64,000 bases of DNA from Methylopila sp. Yamaguchi (lineage in GTDB: Bacteria > Pseudomonadota > Alphaproteobacteria > Rhizobiales > Methylopilaceae). The notes beneath the pieces are model-generated. The model ran no database searches and had not been told where the DNA came from. It worked only from the letters and a program-made list of their open reading frames with translations. How positions within the stretch are numbered: position 1 is the first letter of the stretch; the number at the start of each line of letters is the position of its first letter. Both the position numbers and the translations under genes were made by a program. The stretch covers positions 186,001 through 250,000 of the forward strand of contig NZ_BAUX01000003.1 of assembly GCF_002897035.1 (NCBI RefSeq), given 5' to 3'. Shown in pieces: positions 9,468-30,177 of the stretch.

Positions 9468-10570
9468 CGACCTTCGGAACAGCGCAAGCGACAAGGCGAA
9501 AAAGGTTGAGCCGATGGCCACTAGCGCGAGGAGTTGCGGCCAGACCACGTCGACGCCGGCGCCGCGGTAGAGCACGCCCTGGGCTAGCATGACGAACTGG
9601 GTGTTGGGCGCTGCCAGCATCAACGTCTGGACGGTGTCGGGCATGCTCTCGCGTGGCGTAGTGGCGCCCGACAGGATTTGCAGGGGAAGCAGCACCAGCA
9701 TGAGCAGCATGCCGAACTGAGGCATGGATCCAGCGAGCGTTGCAAGGAATACGCCGAGCGAGGTCGTGGCGAACAGTTGAAGAGCAGCGCCGAACAGGAA
9801 AAGCCAGACCTTACCCTGGACCGGGATCCCGAGGGCGCCCTCCACCACTACGTAGACCGAGAACGCAGTCGCGGCGAGCACCACGCGCCCATGGACCAGA
9901 TCTTCGAGATCATGATCTCGGCGGCGGTGATGGGCATGACCAGAAGGTGCTCGATCGTGCCATGCTCGCGCTCCCGGATGAGGGCTGCGCCCGCAAGCAC
10001 GATCGACAGCATGGTGACATTGTTCATCACGTTCATCACGGCGCCGAACCAGGCCTTCTCGAGTCCGGGATTGAAGCGGACCCGGCTCGCCAGATCGACC
10101 GGCGGCGCGGCGGATGTCCGGTAGCGGTCGGCGAAGCCCTTCACCTCGTCGGCCACGATCGTCTCGACGTAGCCCGCTCCGCTGAACGCCTGCGTCATGC
10201 GGGTGGCGTCGACGTTCAGCTGGATCGTGGGCGTCCGTCCCGCCAGCAGGTCGCGCTGGAAGTTGGGCGGTATGTCGAGGGCGAATGCGATCTCCCCCTG
10301 GTCCATCAGGTGGTCCATCGCGCCCGTGTTGATCAACTGGGGCGCGGTGAAGTGAGGCGCGTAGAACGCGGCTGCGATGCGGGCCGACACTGGCGAGCGA
10401 TCTTCGTCCACGATCGCGATCGGCGCTCTGTTCAGCGTCTCCGGCGCCGCCCTCGACTGCGCGTAAACCGAGAGCGTGAAGGAATAGGCGATCAAGATCA
10501 GTAGCATCGGATCGCGCGCCAGACCGCGCAGCTCCTTCACGCCAAGCTGAAGAATGTTGGCGGCGCGCAT
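9459..10570 (-). pseudogene. ABC-2 type permease (YhhJ-like), split by a frameshift
   Basis: Two frames together make one complete ABC-2 permease of about 370 residues. The first (start 10570) has the N-terminal helix, the large extracytoplasmic domain and the conserved IREREHGTIEHLLVMP, ending at KIWSMG. The continuation (VVLAATAFSVYVVVEG onward) is in another frame starting at about 9884 and carries the last four helices. A single missing base near 9885-9892 explains the break. It starts two bases after the RbbA-like gene, as in the E. coli yhiI-rbbA-yhhJ operon. Unless this is a sequencing error, the exporter lacks one permease. Confidence 0.8.
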
Positions 10571-10572
10571 GT

Positions 10573-13326
10573 TCAGGCTGCCTGCTTCTTCAGGAGCGCG
10601 ACGCTCAGCCCGAGCAGCGCCGGCGCTGCGATCGCGAGTGCAGCGAACGAGGGATAGAGATCCGCGAGGCCCAGCGCCTTCGAGAAGGTCGCCCGGGTGA
10701 TCGTCATGAAATGGGCGGTCGGATAGATCCGGCCGATCAAAGCGCCGACGCCCTCGAGCGAGGACACCGGATCAATCATCCCGGAGAACTGCGCGGCGGG
10801 GACGATCGTGAGCACGGTCGCGCCGAAGATCGCCGCGATCTGGCTCGACATGAAGGTTGAGATCAAGAGGCCAAACGCAGTCGAGGCCATTACGTAGAGC
10901 AGCGCGCCCGTCGCGTAGGCGACGAAGCTCCCCGTGAAGGGGACGCGGAAGGCGAACGCCGCGGCCAGCCAGAGCAGCCCTGCGTTGATCATGGCGAGAG
11001 CGACGTAAGGCGCCTGCTTGCCGAGCAGGAACTCCAGCCGCGAGACCGGCGTGACGTAGAGATTGACGATGGAGCCGAGCTCCTTCTCGCGCACGACGCT
11101 CAACGCCGCCAGCATGGCGGGGATCAGCATCAGCAGAAGCGGGATGGTCGCGGGCGCCATGGACACCAGGCTCGCGAGGTCGGGATTGTAGCGATAGCGG
11201 ATGGCGATGGTGAAGGGCTCCGCCGCGGCGCGCGCGCCGACCACCTCGCGCGCCTTCTGCGCGAGCCAGTAGGCATGGATACCTTGGACGTATCCCCGCG
11301 CGGTCTCGGCGCGGGCCGGCATGGCGCCGTCGATCCAGGCGCCGATCGTGGCCTGGCGGCCCCGCGCCACGTCTTCCGCGAAGCCCGGCGGAATTTCGAT
11401 CGCCAGGCTGAGCTCTCCGGCGCGCATCCGGCGATCGAGATCGGCGTAATCAATGATTGGAGGTTTCTCGTCGAAGTATCGAGACCCGGCGATATCTAGC
11501 GCGTACAACCGGCTCGTAGTGGTCCCGTCCCGGTCGAGGACCGCGAAGGACAGGTGTTCAACGTCGAGATTCATGCCATAACCGATGACGAACATGAGCA
11601 GCGCGCTTCCCAGCAGCGCAAGCGTGGCGCGAACCGGATCGCGACGAAGCTCAAGAGCCTCCCGGCGCGTGTAGCTTCCCAACCGTCGTAGATCGAAGGC
11701 GCGCCGAGCGACGCCGGCGGAGCCGAAGTCCGTAGTGGACTGCGCCGATGCAGTCATCTCCGGGGGCGCCTCTTCGGCGCTGGCTTCGCTGAGGCGTCTG
11801 ACGAAGGCCTCCTCAAGCGACGATAGGCCGGACTGCGCGACGATCGCCGCAGGCGCGTCGGTGACGAGCACGCGGCCTGCATGCATCAGCGAGATGCGGT
11901 CGCAGCGCTCGGCTTCGTTCATAAAGTGGGTCGAGATGAAGATCGTCACGTGATCGCGCCGCGCGAGCTCGATGAGGATGCGCCAGAGCCCGTCGCGCGC
12001 GACCGGATCGACGCCCGAGGTCGGCACGTCGAGGATCAGGAGACGCGGCTGGTGGATCAGCGCCACCGCGAGCGACAGGCGCTGCCGTACGCCAAGCGGC
12101 AGCGCGTCTGGCAACGTGTCCATCTCGTCAGCGAGCGAGAAACGTTCAGCCGTCTGGGCGACGCGGCCCGGGATCATCGCGGCTGGTAGGCTGAACAGCC
12201 GCGCGTGCAGCTCAAGATTCTGGCGAACGGTCAATTCAGAATAGAGCGAAAAGCCCTGTGTCAGGTAGCCGACGTTGCGGCGCGTTTCGAGATTGCGAGG
12301 GTCCACCTCGCGGCCGAACAGCCTCGCCTTGCCCTCGCTCGCGGACAGGAGGCCCGTCAGCATTTTCATGGTCGTGGTCTTGCCGCAGCCGTTGGAGCCC
12401 AGAAACCCGAAGATCTCTCCCTCTGCGACGGAGAGATCGACGTGATCGACGGCCGTGAAGTGACCGAACCGCATGGTTAGGTTTTCAGCTTCGATCGCCG
12501 GGATCGCTCCAGCGACCGTCTCGCGCTGCGTGATCTCGACCGCGCGGTGGTAGCGCCGCTTCCGTTCCGGAAGAAGTGCGATGAAGGCGGAGTCGAGATC
12601 GCGCGCGCCGGTCCGCTCGAGCAGCTTCGCGGGAGAACCGACGGCGAGGGGCCGACCGTCGTCAAAGGCGGCGAGCCAGTCGAAACGAGCCGCCTCCTCC
12701 ATGTAGGCCGTCGCGACGATCACGCTCATCCCCTCCCGCTGCCGCCGGACCCTGTCGATCAGGCCCCAGAACTGGCGTCGAGACAGCGGATCGACCCCCG
12801 TGGTGGGCTCGTCGAGGATCAGCAGATCCGGATCGTGGATGAGGGCGCAACACAGGCCGAGCTTCTGCTTCATGCCGCCGGACAGCTTGCCGGCGGGCCG
12901 GTCCCTGAACGGAGCGAGGCCCGTGCTGAGAAGTAGCTGACCGATGCGGCGGTCTCGCTCAGCGGCGTCCTGTCCGAACAGGCGTCCGAAGAAATCGACG
13001 TTCTCGAACACCGAGAGCGTCGGATAGAGGTTCTTTCCCAGGCCCTGGGGCATGTACGCGATGCGCGGGCACACGCTCCGCCGGTGCGCGGGGTTGGCTA
13101 TGTCGCCGTCGAGCGCGTGGATCGCGCCGGTCTGGATCTTCCGCGCTGCGGCGATCAGCGACAGAAAGCTCGACTTGCCGACGCCGTCCGGGCCGATCAG
13201 CCCCGCCATGCACCCGGCGGGAATGTCGAGCGTGACGTCGTCGAGCGCGCGCTTGGCGCCGCAGGAGAGACCAACGCCCGCGGCGCGGACGACCGGCGGC
13301 GGGACCTTCGGCTCCGACCCGGTCAT
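10573..13326 (-). CDS. RbbA-like ABC transporter: two ATPase domains fused to an ABC-2 permease
   Basis: The 917-residue protein has two ATP-binding domains (about 10-235 and 275-500) and an ABC-2 membrane domain with six helices (about 555-917). Domain 1 is intact: Walker [10 protein letters not shown], signature LSGGMKQ, Walker B LLILDEP. Domain 2 has Walker [11 protein letters not shown], but the signature is LPLGVRQ, as in RbbA relatives. Its Walker B reads LLILDVP, with Val in place of the catalytic Glu, so it probably does not hydrolyse ATP. The ATG at 13326 overlaps the HlyD stop (ATGA), which supports this start over 13359. It is probably an exporter of drugs or polymers. Confidence 0.88.
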
Positions 13327-18166: not shown

Positions 18167-20662
18167 ATGGGGGCCGCGCAAGAGACGCGGCGTTTGCGTG
18201 CGCGGGGCGTCTTCGTCATGTCAGTCATCACCAACGTCGCCCGCTTCGGCGGCGTGTCCGCTCTGGCGGTCGGTCTGTCCCTGACGAGCACGGCGCGGGC
18301 CGACGACGGCCGGAGGTTCACGCTCGACATTCCTTCGAAACCGCTGCTCGCGGCGCTCGCCGACTATACCGCCGCGACCGGCGTGCAACTGGTGCGGACG
18401 GGCGGCGACAGGATCGCCGGGCGCTCCCGCGCGGTCTCCGGCCGCTTCGGCGCGGAAGAGGGCCTGAGGGCCATGCTGGCGGGGTCCGGCCTGATCTACC
18501 AGTTCACTGGCCCGCGCACCGCAGCCCTCTACCCCATCGGCGGCGCGATGCCGGTTCAGCTCGCCGGCGAGGCGGAAGCGCTCGACGAACTGCAGGTGAC
18601 GGGCGAGAGCGGCGCCGGCGCCCCCGGCGGCGCGCCAGGATCCTTCGTGGTGACCTCGGCCGACATCGAGCGCAAGAACCCGCAGGACGTGCGCGACCTG
18701 TTCGGCGGCGAGCCGGGTGTGCAGGTCGGCAGCTCCATCCCGCTGTCGCAGAAGGTCTATGTCCGCGGCGTCGAGGAGACCAACCTCGCGGTCACGATCG
18801 ACGGCTCGGCGCAGAACAACAAGGTCTTCCATCACAACGCGACGACCTACATCGATCCGGGCCTGCTGAAGCAGGCGCGCGTCGATCCCGGCGTGGCGCC
18901 GGCCGACGCCGGCTTCGGCGCGCTGGCGGGCTCGATCGCCTATGAGACCAAGGACGTCCCCGACCTGCTCGGCCACGACCGCGACGGCTATGGCGGCATC
19001 GTCAAGGGCACGTTCAATTCGAACGGCGCCGTGTTCGGCAATTCCTACACCGTCTACGGCAAACAGAACGGCTTCGAGGCGCTGGGCTACTTCAACTGGG
19101 CCGACGGCGGGCGGTACCGCGCCGGCGAGAACGGTCCGCGACTGCCAACGCAAGCTGGTCGGCCAGAGCGGCCTGATCTGCGCGGGGAGAAGATTCCCGG
19201 CACGGCGACTGATCTGCTCAGCGGCCTCGCGAAGTTGGCCTATGAAAGCAGCGAGGGCCACCGGTTTGAGGTCAGTCACGAGCGGGTGCATGACGACACT
19301 AGCCGGCCATTCCGCGCTAACGCAGGCGATATCATTGCCGGAGCTGGCAATCCTCTAACGCGCAATTATAAGCTCGACCGTCAGAATACCGTGCTCAATT
19401 ACAGCACAACTTCGCCGGAAGGCTGGTTCGATCCGAAGGTCGTGCTCGCCTACAGCGAAACGAAGGTCAAGATTCCGAATTTCTCCGTTCTCGATGAAAT
19501 CGGTCATTCTACCGGCTCAACGAGCAGCTTGAACGGCCGGGCCGAAAACCGCTTCGCGCTCCCGCTCGGCAGCGTCACCGCCGGCGTCGACTTCCGTCAC
19601 GACGTCGCGAAGGTGGACTATGGCCTCAACGAGCGCGGGCTCAGCGATCCGGTTTTGGCCGCTGGTTATCTCGACGCCAGGGAGCGGATGACGAACATCG
19701 GCCTCTACGCTCAGGCGCGCCTGGAGCCAATCGAGAGGGCACGCCTCAACTTCGGCGGGCGCGCCGACCATCAGCGGTTCAAAGGAACGAACGACGACCC
19801 TGGTTCGGACATCAGTCACTCGGGTCTCAGTGGCAACGTCTCGGGGGAGTACGATCTTGTGCCTGACCTCCTGACGGCCAAAGCCGGCTACTCGCACGTC
19901 TGGGCCGGCGTTCCGCTGGCCGAGAATTTCATCATGAACCGAAACTGGGATTATTCCGGCGAAACAGGCAAGGATCTGAATGCGACTACAGCTGATAATT
20001 ATTCGGCTGGTCTTGTCATTCGTCATAGTGGTTTCGCAATCGAGGGATCGATATTTAAGACTCAGATTGAGAATGCCCGGAACGCCAAATTCTCAAACAC
20101 TTATGACTTCGATGGCCGGTTCGTGAATTTTTACCTGCCCGTTCCGGGCGCCTCCTGGGCTCCCGATCTCGATACGAAGGGCTTTGAAATTGGCGCCGGC
20201 TACGAATGGGAGACGGGCTTCGTGCGCGTGAAGTACGCGCACATCGATGTCGACATCAACGGCCGGCCGGGCGACTCGGACACAGGTAACTACATCGCGA
20301 CGCCCGTCGGCGACGTCATCACGATTTCCGCTGCGCACACCTTCGCGGCTTGGAACGTGACCGTTGGAGGCGATATCGAGATCGCTCCGAAGTACAAGCG
20401 CACCGGGTATGATCCGTTTTCTGCGACGCTTGAGAACCCGCGTGGCGACAAGTATCCCGCATATCCGGCCTACGAGATCGTCAACGCCTTTATCGAGTAC
20501 AAGCCGAAGCTCAAGTACGAGACGACGTTCCGGCTCGACGTGAAGAACATCTTCGACGAAGCCTATTCGAGCCGCGCCACCTATGGGGACGAGTTCGGCA
20601 ACGTCACTCCGCTTTACGAGCCCGGCCGCTCGTTTCTGATGACGGCTCAGGTCAAGTTCTGA
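18167..20662 (+). CDS. TonB-dependent iron/haem receptor with N-terminal signalling domain
   Basis: The 831-residue outer-membrane protein has a signal peptide ending near TARA-DD. It then has an STN signalling domain (about 50-120, FTLDIPSKPLLAALADYTAA), a plug domain (about 150-265) and a 22-strand barrel ending in the aromatic QVKF. It is transducer-type, fitting FecI/FecR control. The start at 18167 gives a long n-region; ATG 18218 is an alternative, and neither has a clear ribosome site. Composition changes within the gene: 18901-18960 is 44 of 60 G/C, but 20041-20100 only 27 of 60. This suggests that the barrel was partly exchanged. The ligand is not predictable. Confidence 0.9.
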   Translation: MGAAQETRRLRARGVFVMSVITNVARFGGVSALAVGLSLTSTARADDGRRFTLDIPSKPLLAALADYTAATGVQLVRTGGDRIAGRSRAVSGRFGAEEGLRAMLAGSGLIYQFTGPRTAALYPIGGAMPVQLAGEAEALDELQVTGESGAGAPGGAPGSFVVTSADIERKNPQDVRDLFGGEPGVQVGSSIPLSQKVYVRGVEETNLAVTIDGSAQNNKVFHHNATTYIDPGLLKQARVDPGVAPADAGFGALAGSIAYETKDVPDLLGHDRDGYGGIVKGTFNSNGAVFGNSYTVYGKQNGFEALGYFNWADGGRYRAGENGPRLPTQAGRPERPDLRGEKIPGTATDLLSGLAKLAYESSEGHRFEVSHERVHDDTSRPFRANAGDIIAGAGNPLTRNYKLDRQNTVLNYSTTSPEGWFDPKVVLAYSETKVKIPNFSVLDEIGHSTGSTSSLNGRAENRFALPLGSVTAGVDFRHDVAKVDYGLNERGLSDPVLAAGYLDARERMTNIGLYAQARLEPIERARLNFGGRADHQRFKGTNDDPGSDISHSGLSGNVSGEYDLVPDLLTAKAGYSHVWAGVPLAENFIMNRNWDYSGETGKDLNATTADNYSAGLVIRHSGFAIEGSIFKTQIENARNAKFSNTYDFDGRFVNFYLPVPGASWAPDLDTKGFEIGAGYEWETGFVRVKYAHIDVDINGRPGDSDTGNYIATPVGDVITISAAHTFAAWNVTVGGDIEIAPKYKRTGYDPFSATLENPRGDKYPAYPAYEIVNAFIEYKPKLKYETTFRLDVKNIFDEAYSSRATYGDEFGNVTPLYEPGRSFLMTAQVKF

Positions 20663-24053: not shown

Positions 24054-24710
24054 TCAGCCGGGCCTGCGCGCCTCGAAGGCGGCGGCGTCGCGGACCAGCT
24101 TCGCAAGGTAGCGCGGGCTCGGCATATCCTCGGTGACGAAGATCAGCTTGCCGGAGGGGGCGATGAGATAGACGCGGGCGTCGTGCACGTCCGGGCCGGA
24201 CCCCCGGCCATTGAGCGCGTCGATCAAGGGGCCCAGCCCCTCGGGGGAAGGTACCGCGGCGCGCCAGCCCGTCCGGGCCTCGAAGCCGCGCAGCCATCGG
24301 GCCAGTGCGTCCGGCGCGTCGCCCACGACGTCCACGCTGATCGACAGCAGCTGCGCCTCCGCGCCCTCCGCCGTGAGCTCAGCCTGGGTCGCCTTGAAGA
24401 TCGCGCCCTGGATCGGGCAGGTCACCGAGCAGCCGGTGAACATCAGCTGCGCCAGCGTGTAGCGCCCCTGCGTCAGGGCGGCGAGCGTGGTCGCGGCGCC
24501 GTCGTCGACACGCAGAACGACCGAGGGCAGGGCGCGCGGGGGGCGGATCGGACCGAACGGCAGATGCGACTCCGGCGGCGGCGCGGCGACGGGCGGCAGC
24601 GTCGGCGGCGCGGCTCGCCCGGCCGACAGAAGGAAGCCGGCGCCGAGGCCTGCGGCGGCGAGCCCGCAGCCGACCAACGCCCCCGCGATCGCCGCGCGCC
24701 GGACGCTCAT
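24054..24710 (-). CDS. SCO1/SenC-family copper chaperone
   Basis: The 218-residue protein has an N-terminal signal anchor (about 5-30) and a thioredoxin-like domain. The copper-binding CSVTC (CxxxC, TGCSVTCP) is at about residues 93-97, and the partner His is in VHDARVYLI near residue 173. SCO proteins load copper into extracytoplasmic enzymes, classically the CuA site of oxidase. Here the gene is third in the operon of the copper radical oxidase fusion, with a 4-base overlap to the cytochrome gene, so delivery of copper to that oxidase is the natural inference. No cytochrome oxidase genes are nearby. Confidence 0.88.
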   Translation of the reverse strand: MSVRRAAIAGALVGCGLAAAGLGAGFLLSAGRAAPPTLPPVAAPPPESHLPFGPIRPPRALPSVVLRVDDGAATTLAALTQGRYTLAQLMFTGCSVTCPIQGAIFKATQAELTAEGAEAQLLSISVDVVGDAPDALARWLRGFEARTGWRAAVPSPEGLGPLIDALNGRGSGPDVHDARVYLIAPSGKLIFVTEDMPSPRYLAKLVRDAAAFEARRPG

Positions 24711-25135
24711 CGCGCGCTCACGTAGCGCCACAGCGCCCGGCAGTCGTCGTCGGAGATGGCGAAGCGCGGCATCGTCCGGTCGAGGATGACGAACGAAGGG
24801 TCGAGACCCTCGCGCGCCGCCGCGCAGAACGAGGCGGCGTCGTAAGTCGAGGGAGGGCCGCCGCGCCGGGCGACGGGTTGGACGAGGCTCGTCCGGTCGA
24901 GGGGGACGACCCGCCGTGGCGCCCCGGACGGCTGGGCGTCGTGGCAGTTCACGCAGCGCGAGGCGGAGGTTGGCAAGGGCACCTCGGTCGCCGCGACCGA
25001 GGCCTGCAGCTGCAGGTAGCCGTGGTAGAGCGCGTAGCCGCGAACGCTTGGAACACACGCCGCCCCCGAGGCGGCTCCAGCCGCTCCGATCGCCAGCGCC
25101 GCGACCAGTGCGACGCCTCGCCGGCGCAGCCTCAC
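24707..25135 (-). CDS. Exported monohaem cytochrome c
   Basis: This is a 142-residue protein. The signal peptide (about 8-26) ends near GAAC. A haem site CVNCH lies at residues 61-65, and a possible distal Met in RTMPRFAISDDD at about residue 121. The residue after the signal region includes a Cys, but no clear lipobox. The ATG at 25135 overlaps the stop of the giant oxidase gene, and its own stop overlaps the SCO start. It is likely to carry electrons to or from the di-haem module of the fusion. Confidence 0.82.
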   Translation of the reverse strand: MRLRRRGVALVAALAIGAAGAASGAACVPSVRGYALYHGYLQLQASVAATEVPLPTSASRCVNCHDAQPSGAPRRVVPLDRTSLVQPVARRGGPPSTYDAASFCAAAREGLDPSFVILDRTMPRFAISDDDCRALWRYVSAR

Positions 25136-28100
25136 GGCGTCGGGCCGATCTGCTTGAGGTAGTCGGCGAGGGCGTTCAGGTCCGCGGCGGAGGCGCGCAC
25201 GTTCGCGTGGGCCCTCACCGCGTCCGACAGCGTCGCGGCGGAGCCGTCGTGGAGATACGGTGCCGTGGCCCAGACGCCGCGCAGGGTCGGCACGTCGATG
25301 CCGGGCAGCGGGCCGCCAAGGCGGCTTCCAGACGAGGGCTTGATCGTGCCGACGTCCTTCACGCGGCGCTCGTTGCCGCTGATCGTCATGGCGTCGCCGG
25401 CGTGGCAGGACGCGCAGCGCAGGCGGTCGAACGCCGCCTTGCCGGCCGCCCCGGCGGGGGTCAACGTCCCGTCGGCCCGCGCGTAGGGGCTCGCTGGGAA
25501 CGCGGTCAGCGACTGCACGTACGCCGCGAGCGCGTCGAGATCCACGCTCGCCCGCGCTTTGCTGGTGCCCAACGGATCGGACCGAGTGCCGACCGCGAAG
25601 GCGGCGTCCGACATCAGGCCACGTCCGCCGGCGAAGCTGCGAATCTGGCCTTCGAAGTCCTGCACCTCGTTGAAGTTCGCGCTCCAGTGCATGAAGCCCT
25701 GTCCGGTCCCGGCTCGCCCCAGGAGCGAAATGGTGTTGCGCAGGCCTTCGCCGAAGCCGGTGAAGTCCCAGGTGCGGCCGTCGTCCTCGCCCCGGTCGTG
25801 GCAGGCGGCGCAGCTGAGATAGCCGTCCCGCGCCAGCCGAGGATCGGCGGCGTCGTAAAAGAACTGCTTTCCCTTCAGCACCGTGGGCGACAGCTTGTCC
25901 TGCTCGACCGTCGGGATCGTCGCGAGGATGCGTTCCTTCATCTGCCCGTAGCGCAGGATGTACGTGAGGGACACGACGGACACCGTGCGGTCCATGAAGT
26001 TGCCGACGTAGAGCGTGTCGCCGTCCGGGGACAGCGTGAGCGACGACGGCGCTCGGCCCACGCTGAAACGGAACAGCTCGCGCCCGCCGACCGGGTCCAC
26101 CACCGCGACTTGGCGCGTGGTCTGCAGCGCGACGAAGAGATAGGCGCCGGTGGGATGCATCACGGCGGCGCTGGCCACGCCGGAGTTGTCGAGGTCGATC
26201 CGGGCGCTCGGGTCCTCCTGGCCGGTGGCGAGGTCGATCTTGGAGACGACCGCGCGCACCGTGTTCTGGAAAGTCAGATTCTGGCCGTCGCGCAGCGTTC
26301 CCCGCGCGATGTTGTCCTGCTTGGAGGGCGCCCAGGCGGTCTTCCCGTCGGGCGAAAGGGCGAGAGCCCCCACGTAGTTCGGCACGCCGCGCCCGCCGGC
26401 CTCGCTGTCCGGCGCCGTTGAGTGGCGCAGCACGATCCTCTTCTCGACGGTCCCGTCCAGCTTCACGACGCGGACCTCGCCGCCGGTCGGGTCGCCGGCG
26501 GCGTCCACGCTCTTCACCACGGCCGTGCCTTCGCCCGGCTGCGGGGCGGTCACGAAGCGGGAGACGTAGACGCGGTCTTGCGCCTGATTGGTCGTGACGA
26601 AGCGCGGCGACGGGCCGACTGGCGCCGCGCCGCCATAGACCCCGTCGGGGTAGATCATCGCCGCCTGGCCGAGCCCCTCGAGCGTGACGATAGCGCTGCC
26701 GTTCCCATTCGCGAACACGATGCCGAAGGGTCGAGAGGCCGTCGGAAGCGCGATGGTCTTGACGACCCCGAGCGACATTGGGTCGATGATGCTGACCGTC
26801 GCGCTGTCACGGTTGACCACCCACACTTTGCCGTTCGGCGCGATCGCAAGGCTCTGGGGGGAGGCGCCGACCTTGATCTCCGCTACCCGCGTGTTGGTTC
26901 CGAGGTCGAGGACGGCGACGCTGTCGTTGTCGGGGTTTGCGATCCAGAGCCGCGGCGACATTCCAGCGCGCGCTTCGTAGCCGGCGGCGCCGCTCGTCGC
27001 GCCCCGCGCGTCGGCGCCCGACTTCACATAAACCGCCTGGTCGAAGCTGTAGGTCGTCTGCCGGCCGTTCGCCGTCTGCATGGTCAAGGTGACGTCGAAG
27101 CTGCCGGCGGTCTTGAACGCATGCGTCGTCACCGGGCTGGCCGAGAAGCCGGTGCCGGCCCCGCCGTCGCCGAAGCTCCAGCGGTAGCTCACCCCGTCGC
27201 CGTTCAGGATGCTTGGGGAGTAGGTCACCGTCTTGCCGACGACCGCCGGTTTGACGACGAGCGAACGCACGGAGGGCAAGGCGTCCGTGATGATCCAGGA
27301 AAAGCTCGCCGTCGTCGCCGCCAAGGCGTCGGCGGCGGTCACGGAACTGACGTAGGACCCGGGCGTGGTCGGCGTTCCCGAGATCCGCCCGGTGGCGTTG
27401 ATCGTCAGGCCGTCGGGGAGGCCAGTCGCGCTGAAGGCGATGGAGTCCCGGTCCGGATCGGTCGCCCGGACGACGAGCGAGACGGCCGCGCCCGCCGGCG
27501 ACGATTGCGCGGAGAGCGGCGTCAGCACCGGCGGTTTGTTGGCGAACACGCCGAAGGCCTGAACCTCCGCGAGCTGAAGCGTCGCCGCGCCCGCAGCCTG
27601 CACGCGCAGGTACCTGCCGACGCCGCCGAGCGGCACGTCGATGAACCGAGGAATCGTCACGTCCGGGCCGACGTAGCGTTTGATGACGGCGGGGTCCGCC
27701 ATCAGCTCGGCGTAGCTGCGGCCGGAAGGGTCCGAAGCCGACAGGAAGACATAGACATTCTTGGTCCGGTCCTCGCAGCAGTCGCTTCGCTTCCAGAGGC
27801 GGACGTAATCAAGCGCCGCGTGGCCGCCGAGATCGACCTGCCACCACGGATTGTCCTGCGCCGCCGTGTGCGTCACGGAGCCGGCCGCCCAGTCGCCGTT
27901 GACGTCGCCGTCGACGGCGCGCGCCGCCGCGCCTCCGTTCGCGACGCTCGACTGGCTCGCGGTCTTGCCGCGCGCGAGATTCGCCGTCGACAGTTGGGCG
28001 GCGGGCCCGCTGAGCTGCGTGACGGGGATGTTGACGAAGTCGACGTCGCCCGGCCTGAGCCAGCTCAGGCGCAGCGTGCCCCCAAACAGGCTGTTGTAGT

Positions 28101-30177
28101 ACTCCATGAAGACCGGGACCTTCTCGCCGGCCGTGAGTTCGATCTGCCCCTCCTTCACGGTGGGCGCGTGGGCGATCCAGTCGTCGGCGATCTGCGCGCC
28201 GCCGATCCACAACCGAACTCCGTCGTCGGACTCGATCCGGAACCGCGTGACCCCGCTGCGCTGCGCGGTGATCTCGCCGCTCCAGCGCGCCGAGAACGCG
28301 CCGGGCACGTTTCCGCCGGGCCCCGACTCCGGAAACGAGAAATAAGGCGCCTCGCGCCGGAGCATCGCGATCGGACCAGTCAGGTCCGTGGAGGCGTAGT
28401 ACTCGCCGACCAGGCCGTCGCCGGCGGGCAGCGCGTCGTCCACCGAGACCTTGAAGTCGGTCGAGACCGTCTGGCCCCCGGCGGTCGCGACCAGCGTCGC
28501 CTGGAATGCGCCGGCGGCTGACGGCGCGCCGGAAATGGCGCCGGTCTTGCGGTCGACGGTCATCCCGCTAGGGAGGCCGACGGCGCTGAAGATCGTGTCG
28601 GTCGACAGCGGGACGACGTTGGGCTGCACCAGAAGTCCCGCGCCCGCGCTCGCGACGATCGTCCCCGGACTGACCATCGACGCCACCCTGTTGGGGCTGA
28701 CATGGACGATCTTCGCGACCGACGGCGTGCCGGCTGCGTCGAGGCCGAACAACATCCAGTTTCCTGGCAGCAGGTAGCCTGGGTTCGAAGGCGCGCTGAC
28801 CGCGTAGGCGTTGGCGCCCGTCTTGCGGACGGCGAGCGACAACCGCCGCTGGTCGCTGTTGACCGAATGGGTGGTCGCCGACATGCGCACCAGCGAAAAG
28901 GCCACGACCTCGCGGTCGGTGACGACGGCCGCCTCCGCGCCGAAAGCGAGCTCGTCCGGCGCCGACAGGATCCGCGGTCGCGACGCCGGAGCCCCGTTCG
29001 CGTCGAAGAGATAGCCCGGAGAATAAATCTGGACGTCGGGATGGTCGGCGGAGCAGCCGCACAGACCGCCGCCGCCGGACAGCACGCGCCCGTCCGGCAA
29101 CAGCAGCGCGATGCTGTGGTAATTGCGCGGCCGCGCCGCGGCGGCGACCGTGCGGAAGGCGTTGGTCTTCGGGCTCCAGATCTCCGCCGCCAGCACGGCG
29201 TTCGAGTCCGAGAAGCTCTGGCCGTAGGTCTGGCCGCCGATCACCATCACGTCGCCGTCGGGCAGCACGACCGCGTTGTGGTAGGTGCGGGCGTAGGCCA
29301 TCGGCGCGACCTTGGTCACCGCCGCGTCGCCACTCGAGACGTCGATGACATAGGCGCCGGCGCGCGCCGGGTTGCCGTTGTACGAGATCGAGCCGCCGGT
29401 CTTCAGCACCTTGCCCGTGTCGTACATCGAGGCCGTGCCGTTGATCGCGAAGGCGTCGTCGCCGCGCAGCCCGGCGTCGCTCACCGCCCCTCCGCCTGTG
29501 GGGTCGATCCACTTCATGGCCGGGGAGGGGCCTGCGAACAGCACCTTGCCGTTCCCCGCCGGGATCAGCCAGTAATGGCTGTCGTAGGCGTAGCCGGAGG
29601 TAGCGTCGGGCGTGGTCATGCCGTTGGTGGTGACGCCGGGGAGCACGCGCCAGCCCGCGTCCGGAGTCCAGATCTCGCCGTCCTTGCGGTCCGCCCACTC
29701 GCCGGACCACGAGCCGCCGAGCGTCAGCACCGAGCCGTCGGCCAGTATGGTGTTGCCGCTGTAGCCGCGCGGGATGTTCATGTCCTGCGCGCGCGCGTAG
29801 CTCTTTGTTTTTGGATCGTAGATGCTCGTGACCGCGGCGTTCGATCCGCCGTTGGCGAGGACGCGGCCGTCTGCGAGCATGGTGGTGCCGGTGCAGAACA
29901 TATTGTGGCCGACGTTGGCGTCCTGCCGCACGTAGCTCGATGTCGCCGGGTCAAAGAGCAGCGCCTTCACTTGGCCAAGCGTGCCGAAGGTGAACTCGTC
30001 GTCCGCGGACCACAGAAGGGTCTTGCCGTCCGGCAGCACCGCGCCCGAGGACGGGATCAGCGGCAGCGTCACGACGCCGGACCACTTGCCGGACGCGGCC
30101 TCGCCCGTCGCGCCCGCCGGGGAGACGGCGCACGCCATCAACGCCGCGACGGCGGCGGCCGCGATGCTGAGTTTCAT
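25132..30177 (-). CDS. Galactose oxidase / PA14 / discoidin / PKD / beta-propeller / di-haem cytochrome fusion
   Basis: The 1681-residue exported protein has a signal peptide of 1-23. Residues 30-500 are a galactose/glyoxal oxidase: Kelch propeller plus DUF1929-like C-domain, with Cys95 (MFCTGTTM), Tyr139 (PRGYS), Trp157 (GGSWSG), Tyr353-His354 (RNYHS) and His437 (TTHSVNSDQRR). These equal the Tyr-Cys cofactor, stacking Trp and copper ligands of Fusarium galactose oxidase. Next come a putative-Ig domain (505-580), PA14 (585-720), discoidin-like (735-875), putative-Ig (880-965), PKD (968-1052), a YVTN propeller (1070-1405) and a CCP/MauG-like cytochrome (1425-1681) with CAACH (1456-1460) and CASCH (1588-1592). 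It oxidises a primary alcohol or aldehyde to yield H2O2. The haem module may reduce the peroxide or accept electrons. Confidence 0.9.
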   Translation of the reverse strand: MKLSIAAAAVAALMACAVSPAGATGEAASGKWSGVVTLPLIPSSGAVLPDGKTLLWSADDEFTFGTLGQVKALLFDPATSSYVRQDANVGHNMFCTGTTMLADGRVLANGGSNAAVTSIYDPKTKSYARAQDMNIPRGYSGNTILADGSVLTLGGSWSGEWADRKDGEIWTPDAGWRVLPGVTTNGMTTPDATSGYAYDSHYWLIPAGNGKVLFAGPSPAMKWIDPTGGGAVSDAGLRGDDAFAINGTASMYDTGKVLKTGGSISYNGNPARAGAYVIDVSSGDAAVTKVAPMAYARTYHNAVVLPDGDVMVIGGQTYGQSFSDSNAVLAAEIWSPKTNAFRTVAAAARPRNYHSIALLLPDGRVLSGGGGLCGCSADHPDVQIYSPGYLFDANGAPASRPRILSAPDELAFGAEAAVVTDREVVAFSLVRMSATTHSVNSDQRRLSLAVRKTGANAYAVSAPSNPGYLLPGNWMLFGLDAAGTPSVAKIVHVSPNRVASMVSPGTIVASAGAGLLVQPNVVPLSTDTIFSAVGLPSGMTVDRKTGAISGAPSAAGAFQATLVATAGGQTVSTDFKVSVDDALPAGDGLVGEYYASTDLTGPIAMLRREAPYFSFPESGPGGNVPGAFSARWSGEITAQRSGVTRFRIESDDGVRLWIGGAQIADDWIAHAPTVKEGQIELTAGEKVPVFMEYYNSLFGGTLRLSWLRPGDVDFVNIPVTQLSGPAAQLSTANLARGKTASQSSVANGGAAARAVDGDVNGDWAAGSVTHTAAQDNPWWQVDLGGHAALDYVRLWKRSDCCEDRTKNVYVFLSASDPSGRSYAELMADPAVIKRYVGPDVTIPRFIDVPLGGVGRYLRVQAAGAATLQLAEVQAFGVFANKPPVLTPLSAQSSPAGAAVSLVVRATDPDRDSIAFSATGLPDGLTINATGRISGTPTTPGSYVSSVTAADALAATTASFSWIITDALPSVRSLVVKPAVVGKTVTYSPSILNGDGVSYRWSFGDGGAGTGFSASPVTTHAFKTAGSFDVTLTMQTANGRQTTYSFDQAVYVKSGADARGATSGAAGYEARAGMSPRLWIANPDNDSVAVLDLGTNTRVAEIKVGASPQSLAIAPNGKVWVVNRDSATVSIIDPMSLGVVKTIALPTASRPFGIVFANGNGSAIVTLEGLGQAAMIYPDGVYGGAAPVGPSPRFVTTNQAQDRVYVSRFVTAPQPGEGTAVVKSVDAAGDPTGGEVRVVKLDGTVEKRIVLRHSTAPDSEAGGRGVPNYVGALALSPDGKTAWAPSKQDNIARGTLRDGQNLTFQNTVRAVVSKIDLATGQEDPSARIDLDNSGVASAAVMHPTGAYLFVALQTTRQVAVVDPVGGRELFRFSVGRAPSSLTLSPDGDTLYVGNFMDRTVSVVSLTYILRYGQMKERILATIPTVEQDKLSPTVLKGKQFFYDAADPRLARDGYLSCAACHDRGEDDGRTWDFTGFGEGLRNTISLLGRAGTGQGFMHWSANFNEVQDFEGQIRSFAGGRGLMSDAAFAVGTRSDPLGTSKARASVDLDALAAYVQSLTAFPASPYARADGTLTPAGAAGKAAFDRLRCASCHAGDAMTISGNERRVKDVGTIKPSSGSRLGGPLPGIDVPTLRGVWATAPYLHDGSAATLSDAVRAHANVRASAADLNALADYLKQIGPTP

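Follow-up and report, generated by a model that had tools for sequence, protein, structure and literature searches.

A galactose oxidase fused to a propeller-dihaem module, with linked cytochrome c and SCO genes, in Methylopila and other proteobacteria

The activation of copper radical oxidases and the handling of their H2O2 are known in few natural cases, and in the laboratory horseradish peroxidase is added to these enzymes (PMC9770985). A stretch of 64,000 nucleotides from the alphaproteobacterium Methylopila sp. Yamaguchi (contig NZ_BAUX01000003.1, positions 186,001 to 250,000; here called the window) raises the question of how such an oxidase may work together with haem proteins that are tied to it genetically. 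On the minus strand of the window, one open frame at 25132..30177 encodes a copper radical oxidase of 1681 residues with a C-terminal dihaem module; it is followed by a monohaem cytochrome c gene (24707..25135, minus strand, 142 residues, GTG start, CVNCH at residue 61) and then by the gene of a SCO1/SenC copper chaperone (24054..24710, minus strand, 218 residues), each neighbouring pair overlapping by 4 bases. Our survey ties SCO to one clade of these oxidases and finds a cytochrome that looks dedicated to them. As an evenly balanced proposal, we describe a haem-wired copper-radical alcohol oxidase, in which electrons would pass one at a time between the cytochrome and the copper-radical site.

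The first step is to ask whether the oxidase part keeps the copper site of its family. The window protein matches the galactose oxidase structures 9g43 (phmmer, E 6e-124) and 1gof (E 5.9e-100), with an AA5-like catalytic region at residues 26-494 (28696..30102, minus strand) and the Pfam domain GO-like_E_set at residues 400-493 (75 bits). In the alignment to 1gof and in the columns of a 39-row alignment, C95, Y139, W157, Y353, H354 and H437 correspond to C228, Y272, W290, Y495, H496 and H581 of galactose oxidase; the copper ligands and the Tyr-Cys pair of AA5 enzymes are all present, and the second-sphere Trp (W290) is kept as W157. The catalytic domain and all copper and radical residues are thus common to the window protein, 9g43 and the Fusarium galactose oxidase (AA5_2), whereas the window protein differs from the Fusarium enzyme by Ala at R330 and Asn at Q406, and its C-terminal two thirds cannot be aligned to it. 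The galactose-binding R330, which is A197 in the window oxidase, is Ala, Ala and Thr in the fusions L040, L024 and L041 and Arg in L043, L044 and L147. Among the fusions compared, the three from betaproteobacteria keep Arg, and the four from alphaproteobacteria have Ala or Thr instead. Since the W290/R330 pair is a key indicator of galactose 6-oxidases (PMC11267884) and is broken here, the window oxidase probably prefers another alcohol than galactose.

The second step is whether the fusion is genuine. A frame error or misassembly is excluded: the same full-length frame is present in G142 (L024, 86% identity), Methylopila capsulata (L027/L040, 91%) and Methylobrevis albus (L031/L041, 57%), and the same parts recur at eight loci. 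The oxidase and the fusion served as queries for gathering the loci, and the best 80 of 218 relatives (79 loci) were listed. We found nine oxidase-propeller-dihaem loci, and at eight of them, spread over alpha- and betaproteobacteria, the cytochrome and SCO genes stand directly downstream of the fusion; besides the window and the three relatives just named, these are Chenggangzhangella methanolivorans (L042/L143), Undibacterium curvum (L043), U. rugosum (L044) and a plasmid of Comamonadaceae bacterium OTU4NAUVB1 (L147). The oxidase part of the Chenggangzhangella fusion is split over two frames, and an unfused oxidase of this organism (L144) is likewise split, by decay or sequencing error. Within the genus, 4 of 13 genomes carry the fusion, one of them frame-broken; in a sample of 385 genomes of the class, the window's own genome alone reached E <= 1e-40 with two first-look candidates scored per genome, a depth of scoring that scarcer or more weakly matching copies may have escaped. 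A methylotroph-specific function, suggested by the names of the first hits, was dropped because Undibacterium and a Comamonadaceae plasmid carry the fusion.

A preliminary description of the window had read from it the single 1681-residue frame with an intact galactose oxidase site, PA14, discoidin, PKD and YVTN domains ahead of a module with two CxxCH sites, and the overlapping genes of a monohaem cytochrome and a CxxxC copper chaperone; all of this stands after the structure alignments and the Pfam and NCBIfam scans. It had also named a frame error as a possible objection, which the three relatives remove, and had proposed looking for the same fusion with SCO in other genomes, which the eight loci provide.

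As to which part of the gene set the chaperone belongs to, we surveyed 37 chosen oxidase loci (the window and 36 others) together with three loci without oxidase (L178-L180) by profile searches, counting a gene as beside an oxidase when it lay <=5.5 kb from the oxidase domain with profile E <= 1e-10. Second copies of a locus were omitted (L027, L031, L143 and L162, the last being replaced by L177). The clade of the window oxidase is a 28-row branch of the tree (support 100/100) plus L042, which was placed by its architecture, and amounts to 26 loci. SCO is beside the oxidase at 23 of these 26 and at 0 of the 11 loci outside the clade (L029, L032, L033, L034, L037, L038, L039, L046, which is cut by a contig end, L139, L142 and L155), near none of which, within the same distance, did the profile search find the cytochrome either; with L139, which branches next to the clade, the count becomes 23 of 27. 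Both the fused loci (8 of 8) and the unfused cytochrome-bearing ones (6 of 6) have SCO, nine loci have SCO only (L022, L023, L025, L026, L028, L030, L035, L144 and L145), and three have neither (L036, L045 and L153). The idea that SCO belongs to the haem part was ruled out, as SCO is also found beside unfused oxidases that have no haem partners. The SCO gene lies upstream in the Caballeronia and Paraburkholderia loci and in two Cupriavidus loci, downstream in the fusions, and on the opposite strand in L035; these differences in gene order argue for a functional linkage over inherited synteny. The tie of SCO to this oxidase clade, with or without haem parts, is thereby supported, as is the link between SCO and the oxidase that had been drawn from the window. 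The window SCO itself has the CxxxC motif and the distal His of its family (C94xxxC98 and H176, counted by eye; aligned rows and Pfam PF02630, SCO1-SenC, 37 bits). The second galactose oxidase of the window's own genome (L022, G000:C1:424100-444000, 9867-11279), with a 654-residue frame and by eye a lectin-like N-terminus, is followed by a SCO gene and by no such cytochrome.

Regarding the cytochrome, it is beside all eight clade fusions and also beside oxidases at six loci with no dihaem module nearby, in the betaproteobacterial Caballeronia, Paraburkholderia, Burkholderia arboris and three Cupriavidus. At one of the loci (L149) the neighbour of cytochrome and SCO is a second oxidase, a fragment encoded on the other strand, and the intact oxidase is 0.3 kb away. 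C61, C64, H65 and M122 are invariant in 9 cytochrome rows, as are Cys104 and Cys132; the protein falls in no Pfam family and no PHROGs family, and a search of the PDB returned two chains at chance level and no cytochrome match. Searched by itself with tblastn, the window cytochrome matched 6 plasmid records out of 72,556 (E <= 1e-3), and all six carry a galactose oxidase. The six plasmids hold eight strong places, of which seven adjoin an oxidase, a fusion or an oxidase fragment; the eighth (L178) has no oxidase within its 15-kb stretch, and three weaker places (E 5e-9 to 5e-6) stand outside these eight. That eighth place, L178:7262-7537 on a Paraburkholderia plasmid, is a shortened cytochrome alone, with no SCO match in the 15 kb. 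In a sample of the order (<=13 candidates scored per genome), strong matches (E < 1e-50) occur in 4 of 297 genomes, exactly the four found to hold the fusion, and weak ones (E 1e-6 to 1e-14) in 10 more; in a sample of the phylum (<=9 candidates), 1 of 398 genomes reached E <= 1e-15, the window's own. The cytochrome thus looks dedicated to these oxidases, and its presence at the six loci without dihaem module rules out feeding a peroxidase as its sole role. The four best weak matches (L171, L172, L173 and L174) follow SCO-like genes and are perhaps a second kind of SCO-cytochrome operon; no galactose oxidase match was found in these short loci, and the open reading frame upstream in L172 belongs to no Pfam family.

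What, then, is the dihaem module? It occupies residues 1426-1681 (25132..25902, minus strand), with its haem sites CAACH at residues 1456-1460 (25798..25812) and CASCH at residues 1588-1592 (25402..25416). Its closest solved relative is hydrazine synthase gamma (5c2v_C, phmmer 1.1e-15), which also comes first in a Foldseek search with the low-confidence model of the module, the matches that follow among the 50 listed being apparently of the type of MauG and bacterial cytochrome c peroxidase (bCCP). In front of it lies a YVTN propeller (about residues 1061-1425, 25903..26997, minus strand, boundary set manually; NCBIfam TIGR02276 and NF052342, with repeats from residue 1076), for which Foldseek lists 1l0q and hydrazine synthase beta (5c2v_B) first, so that the propeller-then-dihaem layout of hydrazine synthase beta-gamma is present. 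The scores of the known models are modest: CCP_MauG of Pfam gives 29.3 bits in total against a cut-off of 25.6, with no single stretch passing; the hydrazine synthase beta-gamma model of NCBIfam gives 73.7 bits, better than CCP_MauG and far below its cut-off of 1250; TTQ_mauG gives 27 bits against 443.85; and the RoxA-like cytochrome model is reached too. The label CCP/MauG-like, given in the preliminary description, accordingly holds in a weak sense, while the nearest solved structure lies elsewhere; in its sequence features the module resembles hydrazine synthase beta-gamma more closely than a classical peroxidase. Beta-gamma homologues are reported to be common and to lack key residues (PMC12758564). 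Nor does the module qualify as a hydrazine synthase: that enzyme has a third cysteine bound to haem gamma-1 (Cys165; PMC12758564), whereas residues 1426-1681 contain no cysteines besides the four of the CxxCH sites. Domain searches thus confirmed the layout first read from the window; structure prediction gave less, since AlphaFold2 placed most of the dihaem half of a propeller-dihaem model below 50 in predicted local distance difference test (pLDDT) and the dihaem domain alone at a mean pLDDT of 63. Because these models are poor, the haem ligand assignments used here rest on sequence alignment.

All parts are under purifying selection, with ratios of nonsynonymous to synonymous substitution rates (dN/dS) of 0.10-0.43. 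Compared with two relatives, the ratios are 0.10 and 0.11 for the oxidase, 0.11 and 0.12 for the dihaem module, 0.17 and 0.12 for the propeller, 0.16-0.43 for the Ig, PA14, discoidin and PKD parts, and 0.24 and 0.21 for SCO. The oxidase is the most constrained part in both pairs, with the dihaem module second in one and third behind the propeller in the other.

With these results, the haem-wired oxidase can be set out in steps, of which export, metal and haem loading, the substrate and every electron transfer are what we infer. The fusion would be exported (the export signal was called by eye) and would acquire its c-haems and copper in the periplasm; attachment of haem c implies assembly in this compartment, which is also where SCO acts. 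SCO would supply the copper that creates the Tyr-Cys radical site. The substrates of the enzyme would then be primary alcohols, probably those of a glycan to which the PA14 and discoidin domains bind, and the monohaem cytochrome would keep the oxidase in, or return it to, its oxidised active radical state and drain electrons to the respiratory chain. The propeller-dihaem module, standing between oxidase and cytochrome, may serve as electron relay, or use the H2O2 made by the oxidase, or both. Since the cytochrome is tied to the oxidase even without the dihaem module, single-electron exchange is the simplest common reading.

Several observations weigh against this proposal. The nine clade loci with SCO and no cytochrome (12 oxidase genes) and the three with neither indicate that this oxidase fold does not need the cytochrome to work. 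The ninth oxidase-propeller-dihaem protein, that of G360 (L139), has neither cytochrome nor SCO nearby. The cytochrome is under looser constraint (dN/dS 0.32 and 0.38) than the oxidase and the dihaem module (0.10-0.12). A bis-His second haem, if this is what H1657 means, may be too low in potential to oxidise the Tyr-Cys site. Both dihaem models are poor, and no structure shows a copper-haem path. Moreover, the cytochrome and SCO profiles were built partly from the same loci, the single-query tblastn search being the independent test.

The alternative that survives best, a tentative one, is a built-in peroxide remover, in which the cytochrome supplies the electrons and the dihaem module turns the H2O2 released by the oxidase into water. 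Release of H2O2 is an established property of galactose oxidase-type enzymes, two CxxCH sites in what the low-confidence model shows as a CCP fold agree with a bCCP, and Trp1498 aligns with the Trp of classical CCP and lies in a motif, HWxxNFxExQDFE, that is invariant in the ten rows of the dihaem alignment (A2), which argues that this site is under constraint (L147, outside this alignment, differs at the first F). However, the catalytic Glu of bCCP sits in a P..EM motif, and this motif is absent from the fusion rows, whereas the classical CCP beside the fusion of G360 has it (L139:13381-14460). H1657, invariant in the same ten rows, takes the place of the Met of 3o5c and 1iqc, which we take to be the haem ligand. 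At sequence level the module therefore appears to lack the Met-His ligation that the second haem of classical bCCP has (PMC6405878). In Streptomyces lividans the haem peroxidase DtpA consumes the H2O2 made by GlxA (PMC4736821), a precedent for such removal, but a cytochrome of the window's kind also occurs at six loci without a dihaem module nearby. The built-in peroxidase that had first been proposed for the window is weakened by these three points.

We consider it unlikely, although worth stating, that the enzyme is a copper-radical alcohol dehydrogenase, which would pass Cu(I) electrons to the cytochrome (in the fusion via the dihaem module) instead of, or besides, to O2, with no H2O2 formed; if true, it would be a copper counterpart of the quinohaemoprotein alcohol dehydrogenases, feeding the respiratory chain.

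More improbable is a maturation module of the MauG/MbnH type, in which the dihaem part would oxidise the oxidase itself, at the Tyr-Cys link or another side chain, without peroxide turnover. The Tyr-Cys link of galactose oxidase forms with copper and O2 alone, a maturase need not remain covalently attached, and 18 of the 26 clade loci have no dihaem module nearby; these facts stand against the mtoX operons, in which SCO1 and MauG genes accompany that of a copper oxidase (PMC5739008), a non-Met haem 2 that recalls MauG (PMC6405878), and the presence among the fold matches of the low-confidence model of 6e1c, a MauG-like protein of copper homeostasis. Least probable of all is that the haem parts serve copper delivery only, by controlling whether SCO, or the copper on it, is oxidised or reduced: an action of DtpA on Sco-bound Cu(I) has been proposed (PMC4736821) and the cytochrome and SCO genes adjoin in the eight fusion loci with partners and in L151, but in Caballeronia, Paraburkholderia and Cupriavidus (L152 and L177) the oxidase separates the two, with SCO on one side and the cytochrome after it on the other (profile matches of oxidase and cytochrome 3-27 bases apart), and nine loci have SCO without the cytochrome.

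Between the oxidase and the propeller, all on the minus strand, the window protein carries a first He_PIG-type Ig-like stretch (about residues 495-580, 28438..28695, boundary set manually; one of two Pfam He_PIG stretches), a PA14 domain (residues 587-710, 28048..28419; PF07691, 66.5 bits), a discoidin or F5/8 type C domain (residues 740-863, 27589..27960; PF00754, 45 bits), a second He_PIG Ig-like domain (residues 882-964, 27286..27534; PF05345) and a PKD domain (residues 977-1041, 27055..27249; PF00801). Among the fusions the oxidase, PKD, propeller and dihaem parts are constant and the carbohydrate-binding parts variable; the U. curvum fusion, for example, has three F5/8C stretches and no PA14 in the domain scan. 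In the tree of 39 oxidase domains, from which the L042 oxidase was left out (pieces <300 residues), a modestly supported branch (76/93) sets the seven unbroken fusion rows apart, and L139 and L046 stand outside on long branches; the tree thus falls short of demonstrating that the fusion arose once. The G360 protein (L139:3154-12711, 3185 residues) combines malectin domains, PA14, galactose oxidase, more kelch repeats, propeller and dihaem, and a classical CCP_MauG gene (L139:13012-14463, 143 bits) comes after it. A tenth fusion candidate, in Granulosicoccaceae (L046:6812-11314), has three discoidin domains, galactose oxidase, PKD and the start of a propeller before the contig ends, and W290 is replaced in it. 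Two long PKD-propeller-dihaem proteins of G639 (L140:8502-13244 and L141:8309-13144) have no galactose oxidase match; in the L141 protein, laminin G, Big_5 and ricin-type lectin domains flank these parts, and the first 470 residues gave only a weak LVIVD match. A few kb downstream of the operon, at window 18167-20662, the list of open reading frames shows by eye a TonB-dependent receptor with an N-terminal signalling domain.

How far is such a system already described? In S. lividans, Sco and DtpA are needed for maturation of GlxA (PMC4736821), so that Sco and a haem peroxidase act together with a radical copper oxidase, a combination of which the gene set here is reminiscent; there, however, the genes are separate, the peroxidase is DyP-type while the haem module of the window is c-type and CCP-like, and no c-type cytochrome is named in that account. 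The window protein scores 157 against the GlxA model of NCBIfam (cut-off 800). In the operon-like mtoX clusters, SCO1/SenC and a dihaem MauG-like protein are encoded alongside an H2O2-releasing copper oxidase, sometimes with SCO1 and MauG fused, but the oxidase is SBP56 instead of a galactose oxidase and, as far as that account goes, the haem protein is not fused to it (PMC5739008). In fungi, one-electron oxidation by a haem peroxidase brings a copper radical oxidase into its active state, and the tandem Perox-AlcOx of Colletotrichum gives a haem protein dedicated to such an oxidase, as here (PMC9770985); unlike the window module, that Perox is a separate class II haem peroxidase. Hydrazine synthase beta-gamma and its non-anammox homologues, which are widespread (PMC12758564), share the YVTN propeller followed by a dihaem part and are, besides 1l0q, the best solved relatives of both halves, whereas here a galactose oxidase is fused on. 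A reference entry in PMC11267884 records a bacterial AA5 fusion, the Burkholderia pseudomallei alcohol oxidase, with an esterase-type CE3 domain as partner. The earlier statement that no such system is described thus gives way for the parts and the functional theme, which are known, and holds for the fusion and the dedicated cytochrome, which were not found in the open-access literature searched and are new to us.

These small gene sets link haem proteins to a copper radical oxidase twice over: through a cytochrome gene found in its company, and through a covalently attached dihaem module. If the cytochrome is the electron acceptor, copper-radical chemistry would join pyrroloquinoline quinone and flavin as an entry to respiration, and it would be useful for bioelectrodes and for peroxide-free oxidase biocatalysis.

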